A DNA stretch of 43,199 bases from an uncultured Lachnospiraceae bacterium. Lineage in GTDB: Bacteria; Bacillota; Clostridia; Lachnospirales; Lachnospiraceae. The stretch spans positions 1 to 43,199 of the forward strand of contig CALWLI010000026.1 in assembly GCA_944381485.1 (NCBI GenBank). Reading direction: 5' to 3'. Shown piece after piece: positions 37,975 to 43,199 of this stretch. Each line of letters starts with the position of its first letter. Position 1 is the first letter of the stretch. The notes beneath the pieces were generated by a model. The model searched no databases, was not told where the DNA came from, and saw nothing but the letters and a program-made list of their open reading frames with translations. A program made the position numbers and the translations under genes.

Positions 37975-38904
37975 CTATATCCCCTCAAGATCAAAGGGAG
38001 GAGTGTATTCCTCCTTTGCGCTTGATCTCTCCTGCATGTAGCCCTCCGTAAGCCCCAGTCTCACAGCCTCCTTAACCACACTGTCGTACTCGAAGCTTGT
38101 GACTCTCCTGTTTATCTCCCTGTGCTCGCAGGCCTTATAGAAGGGAGTGTACTGGCTCATAAGGCTTATGAGGTATTTCTCTCGGGGCAGCTCTTTTGCC
38201 ATGTACTTAAGGAGCTTTATGGAATCATCTCTGTGGGAGGGGAGCACCATATGTCTCACTATCACTCCTTTTTTTAAGGTCTCTCCCTGAGGAGGTGTCT
38301 TCATGTTCTCCTCCCCCTTCTGCTCTATCATGCAGCTTATGGCTTCCATGGCCACTGCAAAGTAGTCCTCGGCCCCTGAATACTTTTTTGACAGCTCCGG
38401 ACTATAGTATTTAAGGTCCGGAAGATATATATCCACGTAGTCCTCAAGTCTCTCTAAAGTCTCGATCCTCTCATAGCCCCCGCAGTTGTAGACTACCGGT
38501 ATCAAAAGCCTGTGCTTTACAAGGTCCAGGGCTCTTATTATCCCGGGAAGGAAGTGGTCAGCAGTGACAAGGCTGATGTTTTCCGCCCCCTTTTCCTGAA
38601 GCTCAAGGAATATCTCGGAGAGCCTTGCAAGGCTTATATCATTTCCTTTTCCCTCCGCGCTTATGTCATAGTTCTGGCAGTAGCAGCATCTCAAGGTGCA
38701 GCCGGAGAAAAAAACTGTTCCGCTCCCTCCTCTGCCGCTTATGCAGGGCTCCTCCCACATGTGGAGGGCGGCTCTGGCAGCCCTTATATCTGCCCCTGCC
38801 CTGCAGAAGCCCCTCTCGCCCTGGTTTCTGTTCACCCTGCAGCGCCTGGGGCAGAGCTCGCAGGAATCATATTCCGTAAAGATCTTTTTTTCCTCGTCCC
38901 ACAT
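37975..38904 (-). CDS. PflX-like radical SAM protein (COG1313)
   Basis: A 309-residue radical S-adenosylmethionine enzyme related to PflX/COG1313, of unknown substrate and similar to pyruvate formate-lyase activases. The N-terminus has a cysteine cluster, Cys15, Cys18, Cys22 and Cys34 (SCELCPRRCRVNRNQGERGF), usual for this group and possibly an extra metal site. The radical SAM cluster is CTLRCCYC with Cys69, Cys73 and Cys76 (CxxxCxxC). DLKYYSPELSKKY and GVIVRHMVLPSHRDDS are further family features. It follows the BCCT transporter by 4 nt with no strong SD, suggesting translational coupling. Confidence 0.85.
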   Translation of the reverse strand: MWDEEKKIFTEYDSCELCPRRCRVNRNQGERGFCRAGADIRAARAALHMWEEPCISGRGGSGTVFFSGCTLRCCYCQNYDISAEGKGNDISLARLSEIFLELQEKGAENISLVTADHFLPGIIRALDLVKHRLLIPVVYNCGGYERIETLERLEDYVDIYLPDLKYYSPELSKKYSGAEDYFAVAMEAISCMIEQKGEENMKTPPQGETLKKGVIVRHMVLPSHRDDSIKLLKYMAKELPREKYLISLMSQYTPFYKACEHREINRRVTSFEYDSVVKEAVRLGLTEGYMQERSSAKEEYTPPFDLEGI

Positions 38905-38908
38905 CCTG

Positions 38909-40426
38909 TTACAGCTCGCTCTCGTCTTTTATATATTTTTTCCCTTCCTTAAAGAAGCTTGCAATAATGAGTATTATCACCACAGCTATGGGGAAGGCGG
39001 CTATTATGGACACAGTCTGCAGATTGCTCATGCCCGATTCCGAAAATATAAGGGCGATGGGAAGCATTATAAGCAGTATGGACCAGAAAAGTTTCATTCC
39101 CGGGGAGGCCTCCTCATCGTCAGCTATCTCCCTGTAGGAGTAAGCCGAGGCCACAAGGGTTATGGAGTCAAAGGATGTGGCATAAAAGGCTATCATGGAT
39201 ACCGCAAGTATTATGAGTACCAGCTCAGGGATAGGCAGCGTGTCTATCACAGCCATGATCACATTGTAGAGATCTCCCCCTGCGGCGTATAGTCCCATAA
39301 CGTCAAGCCTTCCGTGCACCTCCAGCCCCAGAGAGTAGTTTCCGAGGACTATGAAGGATATGAAGGTGGAGCTGAGTCCGAAGATGTAGGCTCCCAATAC
39401 GACCTGCTTTACTGTCCTTCCCCTCGATATGCTGCCCATAAAGAAGGGGGAGGCGACGCACCATACCATCCAGTAGGACCAGTAAAAGATGGTCCAGTTT
39501 TGGGGAAACATGCTCTCCCTCAAGGGGTCTGTCCTGGTGCTCAAGAAAAGGAAGTTCTGACAGAGATTTCCCAGGGCGGAAAATCCGGTCTCAAGGATGT
39601 ATCTCGCCTCGCCTCCGAAGAGGAACACATATATGAGAAGGGCAAAGAATACGTACATACATATCTCAGCCAAAAATTTTACTCCCTTCATTCCCTTTAA
39701 TACGGAAACTGTGTATACAAGGCAGGTGATAACCAGTATAAGTATGGTGAGCCAAGTTCCTCCATCTATATTGAAAAGCCGGGATACAGCCTTGGAAAGC
39801 AGGGGAGTTGCCAGAGAAAAGGTGGTGGCTGTTCCCGCAAGAAGGGCAAATACCGCCAGTATATCTATGAGCTTTCCGGGGAGCCTGTCGGTAAGCTCTC
39901 CCAAAACAGGCCTTACGGCCTCGGAATACTTCTGTTTTTTGCAGCCTCTTACATGGAGCATGAAGCCGAAGCAGGCTGCAAGAGTGGCATAGAAGCTCCA
40001 GGGTATGGGGCCCCAGTGGAAAAGAGGTATGGTGGAGGCCCAATCCTGGACCGAGCCCAGCTCTGTTATGTAGGATTCGTTGGCGTAAAGTATCCACTCA
40101 CAGAGTGAGTAAAAAAGTATGTCCGCCGCAAGGCCTGAGGTGAACATCATGGCTCCCCAGGTAAAACCTGAGTAGGCGGGCTTTTCATTGGGTCCCCCCA
40201 GCCTTATCTTTCCGTACCGGGAGAAGGCTATATACATGGATACCAAAAACACGGAGAGGCCTACTACCAGGTAGTACAGCCCCAGCTCGTCTCCCAAAAA
40301 GCTCCTTATATCGGAAAGCACGGATCCCGAGGCCTCCGGGCTTATGACAAAGAGCAGGCACAGCACAAGTATTATGGCAAAGGGTATCGCTGTTGTGGCA
40401 GGATCTATATTTTTTAGGCTTTTCAT
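38909..40426 (-). CDS. BCCT family transporter
   Basis: A 505-residue secondary transporter of the betaine/carnitine/choline family with 12 hydrophobic segments. ATG 40424-40426 has SD AAAAGGGG; an in-frame start 11 codons upstream lacks one. Family marks include FSRYGKIRLGGPNEKPAYSG, FHWGPIPWSFYATLAACFGF, and the TM8 region IFYWSYWMVWCVASPFFMGS followed by ISRGRTVKQVVLG. The usual glycine-rich TM3 motif (as in BetP) is replaced by SGLAADILFYSLCEW, so the substrate or coupling may differ. It is co-transcribed with the radical SAM gene and has a strong promoter with an operator. Confidence 0.9.
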   Translation of the reverse strand: MKSLKNIDPATTAIPFAIILVLCLLFVISPEASGSVLSDIRSFLGDELGLYYLVVGLSVFLVSMYIAFSRYGKIRLGGPNEKPAYSGFTWGAMMFTSGLAADILFYSLCEWILYANESYITELGSVQDWASTIPLFHWGPIPWSFYATLAACFGFMLHVRGCKKQKYSEAVRPVLGELTDRLPGKLIDILAVFALLAGTATTFSLATPLLSKAVSRLFNIDGGTWLTILILVITCLVYTVSVLKGMKGVKFLAEICMYVFFALLIYVFLFGGEARYILETGFSALGNLCQNFLFLSTRTDPLRESMFPQNWTIFYWSYWMVWCVASPFFMGSISRGRTVKQVVLGAYIFGLSSTFISFIVLGNYSLGLEVHGRLDVMGLYAAGGDLYNVIMAVIDTLPIPELVLIILAVSMIAFYATSFDSITLVASAYSYREIADDEEASPGMKLFWSILLIMLPIALIFSESGMSNLQTVSIIAAFPIAVVIILIIASFFKEGKKYIKDESEL

Positions 40427-40469
40427 CTTTTTCCCCTTTTCAAACTGCGATATTTTCAATCGAAGTTTT

Positions 40470-40763: not shown

Positions 40764-40792
40764 TTGAAAATCGTCTTTTTAATTCATATTAT
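40764..40792 (+). promoter_or_regulatory. SigmaA-type promoter of the EIIC-like operon
   Basis: On the plus strand: TTGAAA (40764-40769), 17-nt spacer, TATTAT (40787-40792), giving a leader of about 40 nt before the ATG at 40838 with SD AAAGGAG. Confidence 0.65.
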
Positions 40793-40837
40793 GTACCCAC
40801 AAATAAATCGGATATCTTAAGTGAAAGGAGTACGAGT

Positions 40838-42397
40838 ATGAAAAGATTGGCAATTGTAGGCTCCAGTGGCGGAAATCTCTACAACCAGGGCGGAAGCGAT
40901 CCCTATGGCATGATGAAGGAGATCTTCACCCAGGCCGGAGCCGCAGGGGTTGAGGTCGGTTACATCCAGTTCATAGGAACTACAGGTTCCATGGACACCA
41001 TCTCCGAGGACGCCAAGGCAAAGCTTTACTTTTTGAGAAACGGTGAGGTGGCCGAGAGCGAGGAGATGAGCTTAAAGGAGATCAACAAGCTCTCAGAGAA
41101 ATACGATGAAGAGCTTGCAGGCCTCATAAGAGAGGGAAAGATCGACGGAATGATGCTCATGAGCTGTGATCCCAAGGGAGTAAACAACAAGGCCCTCACA
41201 GCTGCAGCCGAGAAGCAGATCCCCATCGCAGGTACCGGCGGCACCTCCATAGCAAATACCCAGGCTATGGGCTGCAAGGTCATAGCTGCCTCAGGCACCA
41301 CCGGAACTACAAACAGGACAAGAGCTATATCCGCTATGGCGGCCCTCTCAAAGGAGTGGGGACTTAAGTTCAGTCCTGTTATAGGAGCCTCAGGAAAAGG
41401 AAAGGTTCAGGAGGGAAATGTCTGGAAGAGGATCAATTTCAGAGGTATCATGATGGCATCCATGCCCGGCTTTATAGCCATGGCCCTCTGTCTTGCCTTA
41501 AGTAAGCTTCCGGGGCTTGCAGGACTTGAGGATGTGTTCAACAACCTGGTAGGAATACTTCCCATAATCCTCGGCGCCATAGCGGCAAAGCAGATCTCAG
41601 GACTTGACGAGGTGGGAATCGTTGCAGGTATCGTTGCGGGAAGCATGTCCACCGACGGCGGCATCATCGGCGGCCTTGCTGCAGGTATAATCGCAGGAAT
41701 ACTCGCCTACTACATCATAAACTTCTGCTTCAAGCATAACGTGCCCGGCACTACCGCAAACATTGCGGCAGGCGGTCTCTCGGGACTTATAGCGGGATTT
41801 GTGGGAATGTTTGCCATAGCCCCCGTTGCTCTTCTCATAGGAAACGGAATAAAGGCTGCCATAGACATGGCTCTCGCCTTCAACCCCGTACTTGCAGGAG
41901 CGGTATCAGGCTTTGCCATCTGGTTCGCCATCATGGGAGGAGTTTACCACGCGGCTATACTCCCCATAGTGCTCCTTGAGATGGAGTCAACAGGCTACAG
42001 CTTCCTGGGAAGCATAGATATGATGTGCATGGTAATGGTCTGCGCAGGCATACAGCTGGCAAACATAATAAAGCCCAAGAAGCAGTCCGACAGAGTAGCC
42101 TGCATACCCAACCTGTTTATAAACCTTGCCTTCGGAACCTTCGTTGAGGCGGCTTATCCCTTCATGTTCTCCAGCAAAAAGATCTTTGCGGGAACAATAG
42201 CGGCAGCCACCATATCAGGACTTCTCGTAGGTCTCCTGGGAGTAAGGGGAACAGCCTATGTGCCCTCTTTCATGGCTCCTCTTATGGCAAATGAAGGCCA
42301 TGCTGTTCAGACCGTCATCTGCATGGTAGCCGCAGTGGCTCTTGGCTGTGTATTTACAATGATCGCAAACGCGACAGATAAGTCAAAGGAGGAATAG
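40838..42397 (+). CDS. EIIC-like PTS membrane protein fused to an unknown N-terminal domain
   Basis: A 519-residue protein from ATG 40838 (SD AAAGGAG, 7 nt); an upstream in-frame start at 40748 lies within the promoter. Residues 1-190 are a soluble glycine-rich alpha/beta domain that I cannot name: it begins MKRLAIVGSSGGNLYNQGG and contains LIREGKIDGMMLMSCDPKGV, AGTGGTSIANTQAMG and AASGTTGTTNRTRAIS. From about 205 on there are about nine hydrophobic segments like the EIIC_2 type of PTS permeases, for example GGIIGGLAAGIIAGILAYYI, AAYPFMFSS and LVGLLGVRGTAYVPSFMAPL. No IIA or IIB domain is present here or adjacent. A gene for a putative enzyme follows 3 nt downstream. Confidence 0.72.
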   Translation: MKRLAIVGSSGGNLYNQGGSDPYGMMKEIFTQAGAAGVEVGYIQFIGTTGSMDTISEDAKAKLYFLRNGEVAESEEMSLKEINKLSEKYDEELAGLIREGKIDGMMLMSCDPKGVNNKALTAAAEKQIPIAGTGGTSIANTQAMGCKVIAASGTTGTTNRTRAISAMAALSKEWGLKFSPVIGASGKGKVQEGNVWKRINFRGIMMASMPGFIAMALCLALSKLPGLAGLEDVFNNLVGILPIILGAIAAKQISGLDEVGIVAGIVAGSMSTDGGIIGGLAAGIIAGILAYYIINFCFKHNVPGTTANIAAGGLSGLIAGFVGMFAIAPVALLIGNGIKAAIDMALAFNPVLAGAVSGFAIWFAIMGGVYHAAILPIVLLEMESTGYSFLGSIDMMCMVMVCAGIQLANIIKPKKQSDRVACIPNLFINLAFGTFVEAAYPFMFSSKKIFAGTIAAATISGLLVGLLGVRGTAYVPSFMAPLMANEGHAVQTVICMVAAVALGCVFTMIANATDKSKEE

Positions 42398-42400
42398 ATT

Positions 42401-43199
42401 ATGATATACAATGATATGAAGAGGAAGATGGAAGCAAGCATGGCAAAGGTCCACAAGGCCCTTGAGAAGGGTCACGGACACACCATATTGAGCACAGGAA
42501 TCACAGGAGATGACTCAAGGCTTGCAAAGGCTGTAGTTGACGCAGGCGTAACCATGCTTGAGCCCAACCATCCCGCCCTGGTCCTTGCAAGAGGCTACAA
42601 GGGCATCACCTCAATGCATGAGGCGGAGCAGGTAAGACACGAGATAAGAGTTGAGCAGATGGCAGAGGTCACAAGAGGCGTGAGAGCTGTCTGCGGCAAG
42701 GATGTATATATAACTGTGGGCATACCCGGAGGCTTCACAGAGGTGGTTCCCAAGATCATCACAGATGAGGAGTTTGAGCTCATGTCCACCAGCGGTGCCG
42801 ACGGACTCCACACCCACAAGTCAAGCCTTAAGGACCTTGAGGAGCTGGTTAAGAAGGCTCACTACTACGGCCTCTGCGTTGACGCCTACATCGGTCTCCC
42901 CACTGACCTTCACACCTTCGGAATATCCGCTGAAAAGCCTGAGGAGGTTGCAAAGGTTGCAAAGCAGATGGAGGAAGTGGGAACTGACATGATAGGCCTT
43001 ATGACCGGAATGAGCTATGAGGGAGTAGAGGCAGGACAGATACCCGCAGTCCTCAAAGAGCGTCTCTGCGCTATGGTGGAGGCTGTAAAGGTTCCCACTC
43101 TCGCAGAGGGCGGAATCAACCTCACAAACTATGAGGCCTTCAAGGATACCGGAGTAAACATCCTTGTAATAGGAACATCCATCGACAAGATGGTGGAGA
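42401..43199 (+). CDS. Putative TIM-barrel enzyme, partial (runs off the window)
   Basis: The frame opens at ATG 42401 (SD AAAGGAGG, about 8 nt) and stays open to the window end (266 codons), so the C-terminus is missing. It reads as alternating beta-strands and helices of a TIM barrel. HGHTILSTGITGDDSRLAKA and VVDAGVTMLEPNHPALVLAR form the first units, VYITVGIPGGFTE the third, STSGADGLHTHKSSLKDLEE the middle, and VPTLAEGGINLTNYEAFKDT then GVNILVIGTSID the phosphate-binding-like end, as in NanE or HisA/TrpC-type barrels. I do not recognise the family. The 3-nt gap to the EIIC-like gene suggests that it acts on the imported substrate. Confidence 0.7.
   Translation, partial: MIYNDMKRKMEASMAKVHKALEKGHGHTILSTGITGDDSRLAKAVVDAGVTMLEPNHPALVLARGYKGITSMHEAEQVRHEIRVEQMAEVTRGVRAVCGKDVYITVGIPGGFTEVVPKIITDEEFELMSTSGADGLHTHKSSLKDLEELVKKAHYYGLCVDAYIGLPTDLHTFGISAEKPEEVAKVAKQMEEVGTDMIGLMTGMSYEGVEAGQIPAVLKERLCAMVEAVKVPTLAEGGINLTNYEAFKDTGVNILVIGTSIDKMVE

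Follow-up and report, generated by a model that had tools for sequence, protein, structure and literature searches.

An EIIC-fold permease with a Rossmann-like N-terminal domain, a TIM-barrel protein and a GntR/UTRA regulator form a conserved cassette without adjoining phosphotransferase partners

We describe a transport cassette at the right-hand end of a 43,199-nt stretch of DNA (the whole of which is called the window) from an uncultured Lachnospiraceae bacterium (assembly GCA_944381485.1, contig CALWLI010000026.1). It is headed by a permease whose membrane part is predicted to adopt the EIIC fold of the phosphoenolpyruvate-dependent phosphotransferase system (PTS) and whose cytosolic N-terminal domain is predicted to be Rossmann-like; a triosephosphate isomerase (TIM)-barrel protein and a GntR/UTRA regulator follow. 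The module is real, occurs in several phyla and carries its own regulator. It is EIIC-like and not PTS in anatomy, lies outside the definition of a PTS enzyme II, and seems able to work without the usual phosphotransferase machinery. The initial annotation, drawn from the window's letters alone, had seen a possible new transport-catabolism module in the permease and barrel; the third gene, an operator-like site and a link to the imidazoleglycerol-phosphate dehydratase HisB were not visible to it.

The permease (519 aa) reads from an ATG at 40838, behind a Shine-Dalgarno-like gaaaggag at 40823-40830, to a TAG at 42395-42397, and the barrel ATG at 42401 follows after a gap of only 3 nt, as originally described. 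Because the window is the entire contig C26 of its genome (G000), the barrel gene, open for 266 aa to the last nucleotide, is cut by the contig end. A profile search of the same genome matched the last 50 positions of the barrel profile to the start of contig C14, and the ends of C26 and C14 share an exact 120-nt overlap. On C14 the barrel gene finishes and is followed by the GntR/UTRA gene (L128:259-996). The join therefore gives an operon of permease, barrel and GntR/UTRA regulator, without IIA or IIB, genes whose presence downstream had been named as one observation that would speak against a new module. Neither frame is a chance one, since 78 relatives align with the permease near full length (49-75% identity) and 33 with the barrel (56-83% identity).

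The assignment of the membrane part to the EIIC fold of the glucose superfamily comes from structural modelling and agrees with the first reading of this half of the protein. A single-sequence Pfam scan of the permease found nothing convincing, and TIGR01995 matched residues 288-515 (E 3.1e-15) far under its NCBIfam cut-off. Across 79 family members (alignment A2, which omits L002, a near copy of the window, L020, with a stop in its translation, and L082-L084), Pfam PTS_EIIC matched 23 (best E 1.9e-6), TIGR01996 60 and TIGR01995 58. The full-length AlphaFold2 (AF2) model (pLDDT 87, pTM 0.73) found PtsG entries of E. coli and V. cholerae as its best Foldseek matches in the PDB (9a6a, E 8.7e-8, and 9a3b, 2.7e-6, both integrative models), with cryo-EM PtsG structures also matched (8qsr, 5.6e-5; 9lgt, 1.0e-4). 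Two candidate substrate-site residues are kept: His371 in 78 of the 79 rows, the other being a gap, and Glu437 in all 79. In an alignment of 14 of the A2 rows with true PTS EIIC proteins from seven loci, chosen among L085-L097 (13 loci; Lachnospiraceae-level relatives, all with the IIB Cys motif), His371 lines up with the conserved EIIC His in six, the remaining one having Gln, and Glu437 falls beside the Glu of the GITE motif with a shift of one column.

The N-terminal domain, first estimated at about 190 residues of alpha/beta structure, is modelled by AF2 as a five-strand parallel alpha/beta domain of residues 1-184 (pLDDT 91.1, pTM 0.87). Its invariant residues gather in the loops GSSGG (8-12), S109-D111-P112-N116, GTGG (132-135), SGTT (152-155) and TNRTR (158-162). 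None of its 1173 Foldseek matches in the PDB (up to E 10) fell under E 0.001; the best were MurG (E 3.3e-3), PPi-phosphofructokinase, glutaminase-asparaginase and others, and among the best 50 of the 1173 the query-normalised TM-scores were 0.18-0.46 and no IIA or IIB fold occurred, the match that had been named as fatal to novelty. No His or Cys is conserved across the 79 rows; two columns have at least 30% Cys (25/79 each), and Ala is commoner in both. The domain is therefore unlikely to carry phosphate on His or Cys in the manner of IIA or IIB, an identity that was set aside on the missing residues together with the absence of a significant fold match. Sequence searches placed it in no family: over the 79 members Pfam returned only Peripla_BP_4 (8/79) and HI0933_like (1/79), ten N-domains scanned by themselves yielded two weak family matches, in two proteins, and a DUF (domain of unknown function), and a search against the PDB found no relative. 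The Peripla_BP_4 match, which lies in the N-domain in the one case inspected (L078), does no more than hint that the domain binds sugar. On the model, the domain is best called Rossmann-like, outside any named family; the suggestion in the initial annotation that it binds nucleotide or phosphorylates the cargo found nothing to bear it out.

The absence of fused or adjacent PTS partners, already remarked in the window, extends to the relatives. When 87 stretches (1.19 Mb) were searched with five Glc-type IIABC queries, seven matches fell outside the permease coordinates, two of them the permease of L082 itself and five a single PTS gene in L009, ~7.6 kb from the permease; no IIA or IIB adjoins the permease by these Glc-type queries, other IIA/IIB superfamilies not being queried. 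No EIIA with a phospho-His is fused or nearby, as judged from the N-domain and the IIABC neighbours (PF00358 was not searched genome-wide), and the window genome has no Glc-type EIIB (PF00367), other EIIB superfamilies not being tested. Enzyme I (EI) passes the TIGR01417 cut-off in 35 of 45 carrier genomes, including the window genome, which also has HPr, and in all 15 tested carriers of a permease without barrel. Among the ten EI-negative genomes plus the window genome, a Glc-type EIIB was found in 1/11 and HPr in 4/11, and EI, HPr and EIIB were all undetected in seven carriers (genomes of L057, L032, L033, L037, L039, L026 and L070). These seven include Longilinea arvoryzae KOME-1 (L057, 4.4 Mb), the L070 genome, apparently the same as G583 (98% complete), and the L026 genome, which has a partial EI-like frame. 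The EI-negative genomes are all of the barrel class (10/30 vs 0/15, Fisher p 0.019), a distribution that follows phylogeny. The permease thus resembles EIICs of the glucose superfamily (PtsG, BglF/ScrA type) in predicted fold, in a weak sequence match and in the substrate-site His and Glu, but unlike them it has no IIA or IIB fused to it or beside it, its N-terminal domain shows no conserved phospho-acceptor residue, and the window genome has no Glc-type EIIB. The early suspicion that it may be a non-PTS transporter is supported at the level of anatomy. The YhfT/YhfU and 'SFCGS' permease modules may offer a likeness, since in them a PTS-like or orphan permease is accompanied by a glycine-rich alpha/beta protein and by barrel enzymes.

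The barrel protein belongs with 4ml9, a solved structure deposited as 'Uncharacterized protein' (E 5.8e-110 over 265 residues), so that the family already has a structure; the record bears no function name, and what the present loci add is the association of such barrels with a transporter and a regulator. The AEGGIN...VIGTS pattern noted near its end is indeed there. Invariant residues include E54, N56, H57, R64, H137, H139, K140, D161, H171, E207 and E236, which from the sequence appear to sit at strand ends. The protein scores far under the equivalog cut-offs for HisA (26.1 bits vs 243), HxlAB (24.7 vs 500) and ThiE (16.6 vs 145.1). Its weak likeness to phosphate-binding barrels lies mostly in the C-terminal, phosphate-gripper half, with distant matches to ThiE-like proteins (a label of our own reading) and, below cut-off, to the 3-hexulose-6-phosphate synthase (HPS, HxlA) and HisA models. 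A TrpA-like identity was considered from a stretch similar by eye and set aside, there being no TrpA model among the family matches.

A genome scan for the permease turned up 146 relatives; the best 80, which were retained, come from Lachnospiraceae, other Clostridia, Bacilli, Anaerolineae, Spirochaetes, Izemoplasmatales and others. Within a 200-genome sample of the window's family 16 had a match, four of them full-length (the window genome included), and among 398 genomes from its phylum 39 matched the barrel profile, three of them full-length (G000, G583 and G322). Of the 83 loci, among which L005 duplicates L082 and L021 looks the same as L083, 35 have the barrel, in every case directly downstream on the same strand; the module is in this sense conserved as proposed, and the pair is not obligatory. 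On the permease tree, a quick one with SH-aLRT (approximate likelihood-ratio) support only and some long branches, the barrel label changes nine times. One genome whose permease locus is without barrel (that of L005) has the barrel elsewhere, with permease and HisB at one site and barrel and GntR at another. The neighbours of barrel-less permeases, examined as a guide to substrate through 20 hand-chosen proteins, were miscellaneous; five Spirochaetes loci (L028, L029, L031, L042 and L048) have one gene family after a barrel-less permease, the L028 member being FemAB-like. As for spread by plasmids, no permease record and a single barrel record were found (phage and E. coli collections were not searched): a gene 62% identical to the barrel, on the large Nostoc plasmid NZ_CP117772.1 (L129:8001-8792), with no permease within 8 kb. 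Searches of the open literature, judged on titles and the starts of abstracts, returned no title pointing to the cassette.

The regulator of the window genome is recognised by Pfam as GntR (72.8 bits, cut-off 27) and UTRA (108 bits, cut-off 23.8), and over the NCBIfam models listed it reaches no cut-off (HutC 117.9 bits vs 220). In 23 of the 35 loci with barrel, GntR/UTRA relatives adjoin the permease-barrel pair, either downstream on either strand or divergently upstream. These loci and the window make up a GntR class of 24, of which 15 carry the palindrome GTACNNAC or its reverse within 200 nt before the permease, where 200 shuffles averaged 1.6 and never exceeded 6. The same count was 2/11 for barrel loci without GntR (shuffle mean 0.3, maximum 2) and 0/45 for loci without barrel (shuffle mean 2.0). 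As the motif was chosen after inspecting 14 upstream stretches, 13 of them of the GntR class, the counts divide into 6/13 inspected and 9/11 uninspected GntR-class loci, some of the latter being close relatives. Copies read AATGTACGTACATT or near it and stand mostly 20-75 nt before the permease, with single copies ~90, 143 and 247 nt before it. Riboswitch or T-box control was considered and rejected: in 44 relative loci and the window stretch the matches belonged to the opposite strand or to different genes. In L012 a pair of tRNA genes stops 166 nt short of the permease. In Anaerolineae a divergent 359-aa gene (L037:2787-3866, minus strand, and relatives) occupies the GntR position and matches no family over cut-off; it is possibly a regulator of an unknown kind.

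A HisB gene lies near the permease in 15 of the 83 loci, that is in 13 genomes on the same strand, in L021 on the opposite strand and 3.8 kb off (left out of the tree label), and in one duplicate (L005/L082). The HisB label, with L131 added, changes eight times on the permease tree and marks four groups, namely a clade of Lachnospiraceae, L038, a metagenome-assembled genome (MAG) of Treponema (L024), and a clade of Bacillota that takes in Candidatus Fermentithermobacillaceae (L070, L071 and L131). A rough binomial estimate for 4 of 20 lineages at 0.5% each, both inputs being assumed, is 3e-6. In L011 the cassette sits midway in a his operon (hisZ-hisG-hisD-permease-barrel-GntR-hisB-hisA/IE, hisZ by position), and the orders in L038 and L024 are hisG-hisD-hisB-permease and hisG-hisB-permease-hisA/IE-aminotransferase (hisC by position). 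In the genome searches for HisB, which leave out L013, the cassette copy is the sole HisB in several Lachnospiraceae genomes (e.g. G596, G597 and G599), on a contig apart from hisG and hisD; G598 has a second one. The cassette HisB is likewise the only HisB in the Bacillota genomes G322, G635 and G636 (G583 and G635, with the same coordinates, look like one genome). Genome searches found neither HisD nor HisG in these three, and the HisA/F model matched only partially (at most 99 of 228 positions, best E 1.4e-6, some over the Pfam cut-off). The HisB of G322 and G583 is divergent (E 4.3e-30 and 2.3e-30). In the G322 genus, two genomes without a full-length barrel have HisB at E ~1e-61; the other nine family members searched have none. 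The divergent cassette HisB keeps the HHxxED, NxHHxxE and SxKG motifs, which we take to bind metal and phosphate. A second, short HisB-like stretch (53% identity over ~58 residues, L004:1918-2091, contig C65 of G640) lies upstream of the L004 permease and is apparently a gene remnant.

We propose that the locus is a PTS-independent, repressor-controlled cassette for the uptake and processing of a polyol handled as its phosphate, a proposal in which our belief and our doubt are about equally matched. The self-regulated unit would consist of permease, TIM-barrel enzyme and GntR/UTRA repressor. Because His371 and Glu437 of the EIIC site are kept, the cargo would most likely be a sugar-like polyol, carried without service from the phosphoenolpyruvate relay, and the cytosolic Rossmann-like domain would stand in for IIA and IIB, its Gly/Ser/Thr/Arg pocket perhaps binding the cargo, its phosphate or a nucleotide. 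The barrel, with its phosphate-gripper-like end and its invariant acidic, His and Lys residues, may act on the phosphorylated cargo, and the regulator would repress from AATGTACGTACATT before the permease until an intermediate lifts repression. A HisB-type dehydratase would have been added in Lachnospiraceae and in the Bacillota lineage near Fermentithermobacillaceae, and because of this addition the cargo phosphate or product is probably like imidazoleglycerol phosphate; such a vicinal-diol phosphate is the best single clue to the substrate. As a whole the locus looks like a carrier-plus-enzyme catabolic or salvage cassette. A bolder version, which we consider quite improbable, makes it a self-sufficient group translocator, in which the N-domain, as a kinase or phosphate-binding domain fed by a soluble donor, replaces the EI-HPr-IIA-IIB chain, imidazoleglycerol or a similar polyol is taken up and its phosphate passed to the barrel and HisB, serving salvage into the histidine pathway in prototrophs.

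Several observations weigh against the PTS-independent polyol cassette. The permease stands without the barrel in 44 of the 80 tree rows, and of 41 genomes checked (covering 41 of the 45 no-barrel loci) 40 lack the barrel entirely (E 1e-20), so that the basic job of the permease needs no barrel. For the N-domain, no fold match reached significance (best E 3.3e-3). Nine of the 24 GntR-class loci lack the exact palindrome and the window's copy, TGTACCCACA, is degenerate; two further TGTACNNACA matches occur elsewhere in the window, where 0.55 are expected. HisB is not nearby on either strand in 67 of the 83 loci (duplicate L082 set aside), and it is missing from the window genome and six more of the 33 genomes searched, so that for the window the HisB clue comes from relatives. 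As to the PTS, three of the ten EI-negative genomes have HPr, one of these also an EIIB, and nine of the ten are MAGs and may be incomplete. With EI in 35 of 45 carriers, and EI and HPr in the window genome itself, a PTS component acting in trans is possible there.

This last point leads to the view that the permease is an ordinary PTS protein in disguise, with IIA and IIB encoded elsewhere and the N-domain a mere accessory. The kept EIIC His and Glu and the EI of most carriers, including every no-barrel carrier tested, would fit it, but it has to accommodate the lack of IIA/IIB neighbours by the Glc-type queries, of a Glc-type EIIB in the window genome and in all but one of the eleven genomes examined (other EIIB superfamilies not being tested), and of EI, HPr and EIIB together in seven of the ten EI-negative genomes; we regard it as unlikely. 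A similarly low probability attaches to a transporter of histidine or a histidine-pathway metabolite, importing it or exporting an excess, with the barrel secondary. Its attraction lies in the permeases embedded in his operons (L011, L038 and L024) and in the window genome (91% complete), in which HisB, HisD, HisG and a full-length HisA/F were not found and which would for that reason need imported histidine. Most loci, however, have no his neighbour, scans of the 44 relative loci and of the window stretch revealed none with a T-box or riboswitch leading into the permease, and the window-genome regulator stays under the HutC cut-off as under those of all NCBIfam models listed. EIIC folds of the glucose superfamily, moreover, serve sugars and polyols and are not known to carry amino acids. 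Histidine transporters grouped or co-regulated with his genes are known in HisXYZ and YuiF, the former an ABC system and the latter a YuiF-type permease, both different from the EIIC-fold permease of the cassette; the main text of the paper on them contains neither 'EIIC' nor 'PTS' (PMC9413887). Least probable of these alternatives, and very doubtful in our judgement, is an EIIC-like receptor whose N-domain signals the binding of substrate. The frequent absence of the barrel, the miscellaneous neighbours and the weak match of eight of 79 members to Peripla_BP_4, a sugar-binding fold (in the N-domain in L078), could be understood in this way, but a full EIIC transport domain with its substrate residues and the close association with an enzyme gene at 35 loci argue against it.

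Divergent from the cassette in the window is a gene for a predicted membrane protein of ~516 aa (38909-40459, minus strand; BCCT-like by eye), next to one for a Cys-rich 309-aa protein that by eye resembles a radical-SAM activating enzyme (37975-38904, minus strand). On C14 a 571-aa protein with two nucleoside-hydrolase stretches (L128:1007-2722, minus strand) is convergent with the cassette regulator.

Table 1. Cassette features within the window
Feature	Position	Strand	Basis or remark
Operator-like site, degenerate copy TGTACCCACA of AATGTACGTACATT	40792..40801	+	36 nt before permease ATG
EIIC-fold permease with N-terminal Rossmann-like domain (predicted), 519 aa	40838..42397	+	Open reading frame, alignment, AF2, Foldseek, NCBIfam TIGR01995
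Permease N-terminal domain, residues 1-184	40838..41389	+	AF2 pLDDT 91; conservation
EIIC-like membrane domain, residues 195-519	41420..42394	+	AF2 model and Foldseek
His371 codon, aligned with EIIC substrate-site His	41948..41950	+	78/79 rows; 6/7 true EIIC
Glu437 codon, counterpart of GITE Glu in EIIC	42146..42148	+	79/79 rows; alignment one column off
TIM-barrel protein, 4ml9 family, first 266 residues	42401..43199	+	Last residues and stop on contig C14 (L128)

If the proposed cassette is what it appears to be, it would represent an EIIC-fold carrier that works independently of the phosphotransferase relay and is paired with a new cytosolic domain, and would bear on how PTS permeases arise from, or revert to, plain carriers. 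It would also give a handle on the 4ml9 enzyme family, whose structure is solved and whose function is not assigned, and on a HisB-type dehydratase retained in genomes that lack HisG and HisD. Regulator, operator-like site, barrel and dehydratase jointly narrow the search for the substrate.

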